From a virus, in IMG/VR virus record IMGVR_UViG_3300042540_000318, positions 1 to 20,405 of that record: a stretch of 20,405 bases of DNA; one strand, written 5' to 3'. The position numbers and the translations under genes were made by a program. The notes below the pieces were generated by a model. That model had not been told where the DNA came from and ran no database searches. It worked only from the letters and a program-made list of their open reading frames with translations. This document shows positions 1-8,079 of the stretch, one piece after another. The stretch's first letter is position 1; the number at the start of each line of letters is the position of its first letter.

Positions 1-559
1 ATTCTACCGCAAGTGTGCGATCCTCATCAGAAAGTTTGTTCCATACAGCAAGGGTTTGTTTCTTGTCAACCTTCTTGTCGTAAGCAAGCCAAAACTGCTC
101 GAAATTATACTTACTTTCTTCTTTTACTTTATTCTTTTTATTATGTGAGCATTCTAGAGCAGGGGTATGATCATTTTTGAGCAGGGGGTGCGCTTGTTTT
201 TGAGCAGGGGGGTAGTCAAATTCATCCTCCTCATTTTCAGATATTGGTATCTCCGGGGTAACCGTTCTGCTTAGTATGTCAGCATCTGGGTTAATGGTCA
301 AGCATCTTACCTCTACTTCGTTTCGGTTGTTGAGTTTTACAATTCTCCCTAAAATCCCCTTTTGTTCCAAATCAGCAATAACCCGCCTGACAGTATGCTT
401 GGATAAACCAAGACATTCCCCAAGGTAATGATTCGAGGCAAAACAATACCCCTTGATGTTTGAGAGGTTTGAAATGACACCTATGAGTAACTTCTCAGTA
501 GACGACAACTCCTTGCTAAGCAATACGCTTGCAGGGATAATTGAATATTGATTATGCAT
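1..559 (-). CDS. Replication initiator-like winged-helix protein (3' end outside the window)
   Basis: Translation of the minus strand from ATG at 559 stays open to the window edge (186 codons), so the C-terminus is missing. Residues about 25-85 read as a winged helix/HTH: helices around STEKLLIGVISNL and YLGECLGLSKHTVRRVIADL, then a wing-like GILGRIVKLNNRNEVEVRC. Residues about 86-150 are a polar linker, followed by FEQFWLAYDKKVDKKQTLAVWNKL (written here as one motif; its key residues are FW, AY, KK and W). That motif resembles the C-terminal region of phage and plasmid replication proteins of the helix_turn_helix_36 and DnaD-like type. I infer origin recognition or helicase loading. The linker-coding DNA contains three direct repeats (see separate entry), as in lambda gene O. 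It has its own promoter and a terminator-bearing leader just upstream. A transcription regulator is the main alternative. Confidence 0.72.
   Translation of the reverse strand, partial: MHNQYSIIPASVLLSKELSSTEKLLIGVISNLSNIKGYCFASNHYLGECLGLSKHTVRRVIADLEQKGILGRIVKLNNRNEVEVRCLTINPDADILSRTVTPEIPISENEEDEFDYPPAQKQAHPLLKNDHTPALECSHNKKNKVKEESKYNFEQFWLAYDKKVDKKQTLAVWNKLSDEDRTLAVE
152..220. repeat. Three iteron-like direct repeats inside the initiator gene (candidate replication origin)
   Basis: On the plus strand GAGCAGGGG recurs at 157, 179 and 202, a spacing of 22 and 23 bp (about two helical turns). The last two copies share the longer form TTTTTGAGCAGGGGG. The repeats fall in different reading frames: the protein reads PPAQKQ, then HPLLKND, then TPALE. 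The DNA, not the peptide, is therefore what repeats. An AT- and pyrimidine-rich stretch at about 105-145 lies next to them on the side downstream in gene direction, and would suit duplex unwinding. Iterons then an AT-rich region within the initiator gene is the lambda origin layout. Origin function is inferred. Confidence 0.6.
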
Positions 560-5682: not shown

Positions 5683-8079
5683 ATGATACTGCCTCAAATG
5701 GCTGGAAACTATTTGTTTCCAAGCGATAACGTGCCAGAGATAGAAAAGCTGAAGCCCGAGTTTGGCTTACGATGCGGAAGGGCGTTGTATTCTCGTTTCT
5801 GTACAGGAGGTACATATTTTGCTTACACGCAACTTCCAGAGATGCAGGAGACCCGAAACTATGGATCGGGAATCCAATCGGCGGAAAAATACAAGAACTG
5901 GTTTACAAACGGATCTCCTGTTGGAACCAAGACAAGATCAAACAACCAATCAGAGCAGTCAACCAAGGGGATGAGTACTGCACAGAGAAAGGCCATGGCT
6001 AACATCAGCTATGACATTTTCTCTCCAATGAAAAAATTAAGCAATGTTCTTTTATCGGTTCTTTCTGATAACGATTATAAACTTGACTGTGTTTCTCTTG
6101 ATAAAAACATCATCAATAAGAAGAAGCGCGAGAAGAATGATATTTACGCTAAGGCGAATTTTACGAATCCCTTAATGCGTGAGCTTGGGCTTCCTGAGTT
6201 CAAGTTGCCATTTGTGCCAAAGGACGAGGTTATGCTTGATATGGCGGATCGTCTTGGTTTCTTTAAGACTAAGTACGAGGTTGCTTTGGAGAAGCTTGCT
6301 GAGTCAGGTTTCCGTTCATCTAATTGGAGTTCAATGCGTAACGAGATAAATCGTGACGCTATCGACTACCACTTCCGTTCGGCTAAGATTTACAACGACC
6401 CAATCACAGGACAGGTAAAGGTTAAGTATATTGACCCTGCTCGTCTTATCATGCTTTGGAACGAGGACAATGAGAACGAGCCTGTTGCTATTGGTCATAT
6501 CGAGATTGAGACTATTCAGTCTATATTCCCTAAGCTTGTAGAGGCCGGGTTTGACGAGAAACAGATTCAGTCTATGGCCAAGTCTTACGTCCCTTACCAG
6601 ACGAACGCCTCCATGATTCCCGTGTGGGCATTTGAAAGAAAGGACGAGACGTCAAACCGTTGGGTTTGGATGGACTTCAAGGTTTACGTATTAAAGTTTG
6701 AATACCTTTCTACCGATTATAAGCAGTACGTAGAAAGAAAAAACAAGCAGGGATATGCCTCATTCCTTCGCAACAACAAGCCGGTAGAAGACAAGAAAAA
6801 GAATCCGAACGACACATACGAAGAGGTTGCCTGCAACTATTGGTATGAGGGTTCGTATATTATTTCAGGAACAGGTCTTGACCGAATCTACGAATGGAAG
6901 AAGAAGCCTAACCAGATGCAGAAGGGACTCACTCCGATGAGTTCTTATGTTATTGATCGTATTCCGGGTCAGTCACCAACCCGCAGTGTTAGAGGACTGC
7001 TTGACGACTTAATGTTTGCTATGCTAAAGCTTCGTGCCGCTGTATGGGCTGCTGCTCCAAAGGGATATCGAATCGACGTGGGCGAGGCTGCAAACATCAA
7101 GATTGGTGGTGTAGAATACGACCTTTTTGACCTTGTACACGTACATCGTCAAAACGGTATTCAGGTTGTTGCCACCAAGTTCAATGCGGCTACAGGAAAG
7201 TATATATCCCAACCACTTCAGGAGATGGACAATGGTTTAGGTCCGCAGGGAGCTGAGTGGATTCAGCAGATTGCTAACTTGCAGATGATGATTAAGGATA
7301 CGATGGGTATTCCTGACGCCATGGCCGCAAGTCCAGACCAAAGCGCGGAAAGACTTGTGGGCGTAATCGAGCAAGACTATCAAGCTGGTAATCACGCCAA
7401 CTGGACCCTTCGCGACTCAGAGCGTGAGTTTAAGCGTAAAGTTGGGGAGCGTATTATCCACCAGGCTCGCATAGATATAGAGTACGATTCTAAGATTCGC
7501 GACTTTTACGAAGCGATTATCGGCAAGCACATGATAGACTCTTTGGATGAAATCGAGGGATTGTCATTGGACCAGCTTGCAATTAGTGTAAAGTCCATCC
7601 CTAACGACAAGGAAAAGAGCATGATACTTCAGAGAGCAATTCAAATGTCTCAGATTCCAACCAAAGATGGTTCGGTTTTATTGTCCCCATCAAGCGTGGA
7701 GCGTGTTGCCCAGCTATTGAAGAATGGTGACGTGGACGAGGCACTTTGGTTCATGGCAACCGAGGAGACCGAGGCTCGTGAGCGTGAACAGAAGAATGCT
7801 CAGATGATGATGCAGCAGACAATTCAGGGTCAACAGCAGTCAGCGATGATGGCTGAGGAGGCCAAACGTCAAACAGCAATGCAGCTTGCTCAGATTGAAA
7901 TCATGAAACAGCGCGAGATGGCCAACATGGAACTGATGAAGGAACAGCAACTTGCCAAGATTAAGGCAGACGCTAACTATCAAGTCCAGTTGTTGAAAGG
8001 TCAGCAAGCGCTAGAGGAGATACAACTTGAGGCAAGTTTAGAAGCGGAATTAGGAAACGAAATCACAGGTAGAGTATAA
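5683..8079 (+). CDS. Portal protein, 798 aa
   Basis: The portal is the ring at one capsid vertex through which DNA enters and leaves, and which carries the neck. The call rests on size, position directly after TerL and before scaffold and MCP, and portal-like texture. That texture includes a central stretch with KYIDPARLIMLWNED, VIDRIPGQSPTRSVRGLLDD and AWxAxPKGYRI-type segments, then a long helical region (IQQIANLQMMIKDTMGIPDA, about 525-545) of the clip/stem type. From about residue 690 to the end the protein is very rich in Q, M, E and K and should be a long helix or coiled coil, comparable to the barrel helices of large podoviral portals. The start at 5683 follows an AT-rich leader without a Shine-Dalgarno sequence, and no in-frame alternative is better placed. 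Confidence 0.85.
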   Translation: MILPQMAGNYLFPSDNVPEIEKLKPEFGLRCGRALYSRFCTGGTYFAYTQLPEMQETRNYGSGIQSAEKYKNWFTNGSPVGTKTRSNNQSEQSTKGMSTAQRKAMANISYDIFSPMKKLSNVLLSVLSDNDYKLDCVSLDKNIINKKKREKNDIYAKANFTNPLMRELGLPEFKLPFVPKDEVMLDMADRLGFFKTKYEVALEKLAESGFRSSNWSSMRNEINRDAIDYHFRSAKIYNDPITGQVKVKYIDPARLIMLWNEDNENEPVAIGHIEIETIQSIFPKLVEAGFDEKQIQSMAKSYVPYQTNASMIPVWAFERKDETSNRWVWMDFKVYVLKFEYLSTDYKQYVERKNKQGYASFLRNNKPVEDKKKNPNDTYEEVACNYWYEGSYIISGTGLDRIYEWKKKPNQMQKGLTPMSSYVIDRIPGQSPTRSVRGLLDDLMFAMLKLRAAVWAAAPKGYRIDVGEAANIKIGGVEYDLFDLVHVHRQNGIQVVATKFNAATGKYISQPLQEMDNGLGPQGAEWIQQIANLQMMIKDTMGIPDAMAASPDQSAERLVGVIEQDYQAGNHANWTLRDSEREFKRKVGERIIHQARIDIEYDSKIRDFYEAIIGKHMIDSLDEIEGLSLDQLAISVKSIPNDKEKSMILQRAIQMSQIPTKDGSVLLSPSSVERVAQLLKNGDVDEALWFMATEETEAREREQKNAQMMMQQTIQGQQQSAMMAEEAKRQTAMQLAQIEIMKQREMANMELMKEQQLAKIKADANYQVQLLKGQQALEEIQLEASLEAELGNEITGRV

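Follow-up and report, generated by a model that had tools for sequence, protein, structure and literature searches.

A replication initiator gene lies at the beginning of the window, the 20,405-bp virus record IMGVR_UViG_3300042540_000318 that was analysed here over its whole length, and the DNA in the middle of this gene carries three copies of a short repeat. Do these repeats mark the replication origin of the virus, or do they have some other cause? The gene has 186 visible codons, its 3′ end being lost at the contig end; close relatives have a full length of 234–240 codons. The protein matched the HTH_36 family (PF13730) with an E-value of 1.4e-11 and 44.4 bits, relative to a Pfam gathering cut-off of 25, and the replication initiation proteins of phrog_270 (E = 1e-22, residues 4–179 of 186). 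Terminase and portal genes were recognized by PHROG matches in the right part of the window, on the opposite strand from the initiator gene. We consider it very probable, from the sequence comparisons described below, that this tailed phage carries its origin within its own initiator gene, in the DNA that encodes the linker, with a winged helix predicted to bind the iterons and an AT-rich block predicted to open. The features of the locus are listed in Table 1.

Table 1. Features of the initiator gene and its predicted origin, in window coordinates.
Feature	Positions	Strand	Remarks
Replication initiator gene	2–559	−	From the ORF list, Pfam, a PHROG match and full-length relatives
C-terminal helical domain, start	2–112	−	Common to all three classes; FEQFWxxYDKKVDKK...
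Predicted origin core	101–217		39 codons with iterons and AT block; near-zero synonymous change in 14 related genes
AT-rich block, predicted unwinding element	102–145		A-rich on the gene strand
Iteron 3 core	157–165	−	Arm behind it (146–151) reads TGCTCA on the gene strand, a direct rather than an inverted copy
Iteron 2 dyad	168–183		Gene strand TGCTCA-AAAA-TGATCA, 5/6 pairs
Iteron 2 core	179–187	−	Frame unlike that of iterons 1 and 3
Iteron 1 core	202–210	−	Gene strand CCCCTGCTC, then AAAAA
N-terminal winged-helix domain, predicted iteron-binding	290–559	−	Residues 1–90; recognition helix at about 53–69
Terminator-like hairpin and T-run	570–597	−	Directly before the initiator ATG

The first-pass annotation had described three repeats at 22- and 23-bp spacing, and GAGCAGGGG is indeed present in exact copies starting at 157, 179 and 202; a search of both strands of the 20,405 bp found no further exact copy. 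A spaced pair arose in none of 100 dinucleotide shuffles, and the triple scored highest of all spaced triples among 67 chunks of the window. We considered the possibility that a repetitive linker peptide gave rise to the repeats as a by-product, since there are repetitive stretches in the peptide (PAQK, PLLKN) and some other HTH_36 genes have repeats spaced by 24 bp, which keeps the frame. However, the observed repeat score of 32 was not reached in any of 10,000 shuffles of the gene among synonymous codons, which preserve both the protein and the codon usage (null mean 23.1, maximum 28). In line with the first-pass annotation, the encoded protein therefore fails to explain the repeats. In the same test, 0 of 35 control gene pieces reached p = 0.05. 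Lambda O and Tuc2009 Rep, known intragenic origins, both passed with p = 0.002; EW ORF018 passed as well, and of the four named phage genes only that of Lactobacillus phage CL1 failed. The related claim that the copies lie in different reading frames was correct for two frames, not three: at gene positions 350, 373 and 395, the middle copy alone differs in frame, and the outer two share theirs. These two frames, the three frames used in a distant phage and the frozen synonymous sites (see below), together with a linker that is predicted to be disordered, leave the protein by-product with virtually no credence.

GAGCAGGGG is part of a longer unit and spans the junction of two of its elements, the gene-strand half-site TGCTCA and the C-run ACCCC that precedes it. 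On the gene strand, the whole unit reads ACCCC-TGCTCA-AAAA-(arm), with the half-site before the A-tract. Within the window only iteron 2 has a good dyad, which is perfect in two relatives, L003 and L013 (TGCTCA-AAAA-TGAGCA). Tested for dyad symmetry, the window gene alone gave p = 0.16, and L021 likewise stayed above 0.05; p ≤ 0.05 was reached by L003, L019 and 22 of the 50 HTH_36 representatives described below.

Directly behind the repeats in gene order lies an AT-rich block, in which positions 105–145 are 82.9% A+T. The most AT-rich of all 41-bp stretches of the window starts at 102, which bears out the proposal that an AT-rich block adjoins the repeats in the same order as in lambda. The A–T skew of the block on the gene strand is +0.46, compared to +0.56 for the lambda AT region. 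The locus combines three spaced repeats beyond the demands of the protein with an adjacent AT-rich region, two of the marks of an intragenic iteron origin.

A scan of viral contigs for relatives of the initiator yielded 60 loci, comprising 18 of class A, one class A variant (L019), 24 of class B, 10 of class C and 7 unclassed. Three CCCCTGCTC copies within 50 bp were found in 18/18 class A loci and in 0/34 class B or C loci, and in all eight class A records that were searched whole, the copies cluster in the initiator gene only. Among 14 distinct class A genes, the window included, pairwise synonymous differences amounted to 1.9% in the codons that overlap the repeats; the AT block had none (0%), and the rest of the gene had 36.5%. 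Conservation of the repeats at the DNA level had been suggested as a check on the origin, and all 18 close relatives keep the three copies with almost no synonymous change. A conserved protein without repeats, which would have spoken against it, was absent: the class B and C genes that lack the repeats have another N-terminal domain, and the sole close relative without CCCCTGCTC copies, L019, has an altered winged helix and a different repeat triple. In the class B linker (16 distinct genes), synonymous change dropped to 0.05 in the lowest full 12-codon block and was mostly 0.2–0.47 elsewhere, except that it was low (0.04) in the last five codons, too. In class C (6 distinct genes), two adjacent blocks had values of 0.00 and 0.06, with 0.2–0.57 elsewhere. 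(L057, which fell to the start-motif filter, and L050, which is truncated, were omitted from the class B and C run.) The repeats themselves are weak in class B, with p < 0.05 in one of five tested genes (L025), and the case for this class therefore rests on the synonymous constraint.

Alternatively, the repeats might be an operator, through which the initiator would repress its own transcription from inside the gene while replication starts elsewhere. Intragenic binding sites could serve as a roadblock, and the terminator-like hairpin before the ATG suggests that the gene is regulated. However, an operator leaves unexplained why the AT-rich block shows an equal lack of synonymous change, and why both the order of the elements and their codon position match those of lambda O, in which, as in the window gene, the repeats begin at codon 115–116. 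Furthermore, no second cluster of these repeats was present in the eight class A records searched. We therefore regard an operator in place of an origin as unlikely; the repeats may have an operator role in addition to that of an origin.

The class B and C initiators have the same C-terminal domain as class A, and differ from it in their N-terminal domains and linker repeats. When class A loci were aligned with class B or C loci, DNA homology reached to within 7 nt of the ATG in five of six pairs, the exception being L011/L029, where it ended 68 nt upstream of the ATG. In all six pairs it resumed at nt 419–481, past the iterons, and the flanks were 71–84% identical. That homology stops near the ATG and resumes after the repeats indicates that the DNA-binding domain and its iterons are exchanged between relatives as one cassette; what is kept is the leader, the C-terminal domain and also the next gene. 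In L019, the changed winged helix is accompanied by three copies of CCCYATGACY, a triple that is absent in classes B and C, and the alignment of L019 with L003 is unbroken at 85%. Since the exchange does end at this block, the apparent constraint could conceivably be mimicked by a recombination hotspot that homogenises it. This we consider highly improbable: classes A, B and C have different repeats, and in each of them the dip in synonymous change coincides with the repeats of that class; the same iteron is present in an otherwise distant phage (L336, below); and selection for a matched domain and target would itself yield exchange at this boundary. The natural swaps, in which the flanks and the C-terminal domain are kept, amount to ready-made domain-swap experiments on the specificity of initiators for their origins. 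They are unusually clean. The principle itself has precedents in lambdoid phages, in SPP1, in lactococcal phages and in the plasmid pPR9.

An AlphaFold2 model was made on L002, a relative that is 94% identical to the window protein. The model has a winged helix at residues 1–90 (pLDDT 74–93), a disordered stretch at residues 96–149 (pLDDT under 50) and C-terminal helices from residue 154 onwards; the disordered linker holds the repeat codons and most of the AT-block codons. The best Foldseek matches were initiator N-domains of the RepA_N type, and the fold matches include those of Rep/RepA (5kbj, 4pql and 4pt7) and DnaD-N (2v79). The agreement with a RepA/DnaD-type winged-helix fold (5kbj_H, E = 2.5e-4; 4pql_A, Z = 9.7 over 93 residues, rmsd 3.0) has to be read with the fact that many other winged helices score close to these matches. 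In the relative L006, the gene after the initiator matches phrog_18375 (E = 8.9e-55) and PF08800 and encodes a primase/helicase; behind it come a gene without assigned function and one for a protein with a DnaA DNA-binding domain. We envisage that the N-terminal winged helix binds the three A-tract iterons, about 22–23 bp apart, and that this binding would bend the DNA and open the adjacent, strand-asymmetric AT-rich block. The C-terminal domain would then recruit the phage primase/helicase encoded, in L006, by the next gene, and replication would presumably start there. The same early gene run of L006 includes, at 7440–7925, a 161-aa protein that consists of DnaA DNA-binding domain IV alone (PF08299, E = 2.5e-18). 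The DnaA box consensus is TTWTNCACA, and no such box was found in the window.

The locus had been called lambda-like. This holds for its architecture (repeats, AT block, their order and their place in the gene) and does not hold for the protein family, which is PF04492 in lambda and PF13730 (HTH_36) here. Lambda O itself matches PF04492 (Phage_rep_O) at E = 5.7e-36; neither this family nor PF06970 (RepA_N) was among the 14 Pfam families found for the window protein at E-values up to 1, and the window initiator is a member of neither. Lambda O and the window protein do share matches to phrog_678, phrog_391 and phrog_345, and hhalign, run with a shallow alignment, gave a non-significant probability of 0.2% for the pair. 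On the best reading of these comparisons, the predicted origin is built like that of lambda, with an initiator that is nearer to the HTH_36 and RepA_N initiators. According to PMC7466680, PMC4488673 and PMC8022706, each lambda O iteron is an imperfect inverted repeat that contains an A-tract, and the iterons lie in mid-gene, ahead of an asymmetric AT-rich block; P22 and L have different iterons in gene 18. The window shares with lambda the A-tract iterons, the AT-rich, strand-asymmetric block behind them and the location in the middle of the initiator gene. Lambda, however, has four iterons of 18–19 bp, whereas the window has three, and in lambda a separate gene P follows O, whereas the next gene in L006 is that of the primase/helicase.

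The RepA_N initiators of pSK41 and pTZ2162 and the RepA of PLE have, according to parts of PMC5703833 and PMC7145576, a winged-helix N-domain, a central linker and a C-terminal recruiter, and in pSK41 the linker-coding DNA is the origin. In the relevant part of PMC7145576, the characterised RepA_N iterons are mostly semi-palindromic around a poly-A tract, and those of PLE lie in a non-coding region. The window initiator resembles this group in its domain layout and its A-tract iterons, and differs from it in family (PF13730 rather than PF06970) and, with respect to PLE, in having its iterons in coding DNA. The nearest precedent is the staphylococcal plasmid pPR9. PMC5703833 describes its chimeric initiator, in which an HTH_36 (pfam13730) N-domain sits on a pSK41-type C-domain: a block of about 500 bp, made up of the HTH_36 domain together with the origin region, took the place of the corresponding segment, leaving the C-terminal domain and the upstream region unchanged, and the chimera is able to replicate and shows compatibility with pSK41. 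A joint exchange of this kind is seen here as well, running from the ATG to the end of the iterons. Whereas pPR9 is a Gram-positive plasmid that was tested experimentally, the present case is known from sequence and concerns phages, in a lineage that comprises three classes plus one sub-variant. Sections of PMC6316719 and PMC8965321 place oriL of SPP1 in gene 38 and describe organizers in TP901-1 and Tuc2009, all with repeats in the cognate initiator gene that are bound by its product; SPP1 oriL has an AT-rich unwinding element, and SPP1 also has a second origin, oriR. Repeats within the phage's own initiator gene are thus common to these systems and the window, as is the AT-rich element in SPP1. 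Tuc2009 Rep, however, belongs to other PHROGs, and the eight class A records lack a second cluster that might correspond to oriR.

When other HTH_36 initiators were used as queries, a further scan found 80 loci in bacterial genomes. Together with the earlier loci, the survey comprised 112 genes, of which 13 shorter than 420 nt were dropped and 99 were tested. Fifty HTH_36 representatives with less than 60% identity were selected; 31 of these had significant repeats at p = 0.05, and 19 missed this level, as compared to 3 of 10 significant representatives with other N-domains. In 28 of the 31, both spacings were 21–24 bp, and the first copy in the significant representatives started at codons 82–144. 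The motif ACCCC/GGGGT was observed 39 times in the survey, against 11.3 expected, and in 41 of the 50 the 60 nt after the repeats exceeded the gene in A+T content. In many HTH_36 genes the arms meet at an A-tract, for example TGGACA-AAAA-TGTCCA (L237) and GGCCCG-AAAA-CGGGCC (L276). These genes suggest a common plan that would consist of a conserved A-tract centre, a recurrent ACCCC/GGGGT between units, variable half-sites and then an A-rich block. Whether all HTH_36 initiators carry an origin in the linker with this plan, and whether phages diversify by joint swaps of domain and iterons, is to our mind evenly balanced. We also compared recognition helices with half-sites. The plain correlation was 0.16 (reached in 17 of 2000 permutations), and a partial Mantel test on 45 representatives gave r = 0.10, with 128 of 2000 permutations as high. 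In a scan of residue and half-site pairs (23 representatives), the top pair, residue 59 with position 4, was equalled or beaten in 127 of 300 permutations. A recognition-helix code for the half-sites is thus suggestive only. We found no survey of origins in HTH_36 linkers in the open-access literature, subscription papers being mostly outside the scope of the search.

The present analysis needs nothing but sequence to predict where replication begins in a lineage of uncultivated phages and in their relatives, and a look at the linker of HTH_36 initiators could reveal the origins of many phages and prophages that have yet to be studied. If linker origins are indeed family-wide, the swaps would prevent cross-talk between phages that infect the same cell, or between a phage and a resident replicon, and the family would provide a large natural library on how a winged helix chooses its DNA.

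Viral contigs were also scanned by DNA pattern alone, which gave 92 stretches. Among the 80 that were examined, triples with 22/23 spacing were confined to class A contigs and L336, and the matches other than initiators were mostly in-frame 24-bp or low-complexity repeats. The L336 initiator matches PF13730 (E = 2.5e-11) and is 24% identical to the window protein. Its three copies occupy all three frames (PCSKT, PPAQKR and PLLKND), so an explanation by protein repeats fails for L336. In this 110-kb phage contig, the iteron at 6647–6712 is nearly the same as that of the window (TGCTCAAAAAYGATCA); it is possible, judging from this match, that distant phages share iteron specificity.

A GC-skew switch near the initiator had been suggested as a sign of the origin. 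In nine of ten contigs, with the gene set at zero, the cumulative GC skew did reach its minimum upstream of the C-terminal motif and no more than 1 kb from it, but since gene orientation switches there too, the initiator being located where early and late genes diverge, the skew is uninformative, and it was dropped as evidence. Third-codon-position skew by strand showed no clear switch. The rotation assumed circular contigs, with end repeats present in two only (G008, 127 bp; G006, 2.9 kb). In the record IMGVR_UViG_3300031857_000124 (L014, L015 and L104–L107), the first 2,903 bp recur at the other end with 99.9% identity, and each copy contains the initiator gene, representing either terminal redundancy or an assembly overlap.

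A first scan of the window gene against genome contigs found no relative, and therefore no host or prophage was identified in this way. Among 87 named phage records that contain a terminase relative, 68 were of Flavobacterium phages and 15 of Cellulophaga phages, with identities of about 25% among the matches listed. Because these phages dominate the terminase relatives, the host of the virus is likely to belong to the Bacteroidota.

The hairpin before the initiator ATG is found in the same place in L003, L006, L019, L037, L022, L040 and L051. Its stem is kept in relatives through changes on both sides (GCCCGTAA/TTACGGGC versus GCTCGCAA/TTGCGAGC), and it may be an attenuator or an antitermination target. 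A strong promoter-like site with 11 of 12 consensus bases is located at 939–966 on the plus strand, between the initiator side and the late genes that run rightward. A late gene on the same strand (1706–2509), encoding 267 amino acids, has weak matches to GroES co-chaperonins (phrog_3188, E = 0.011; phrog_13932, E = 0.041).
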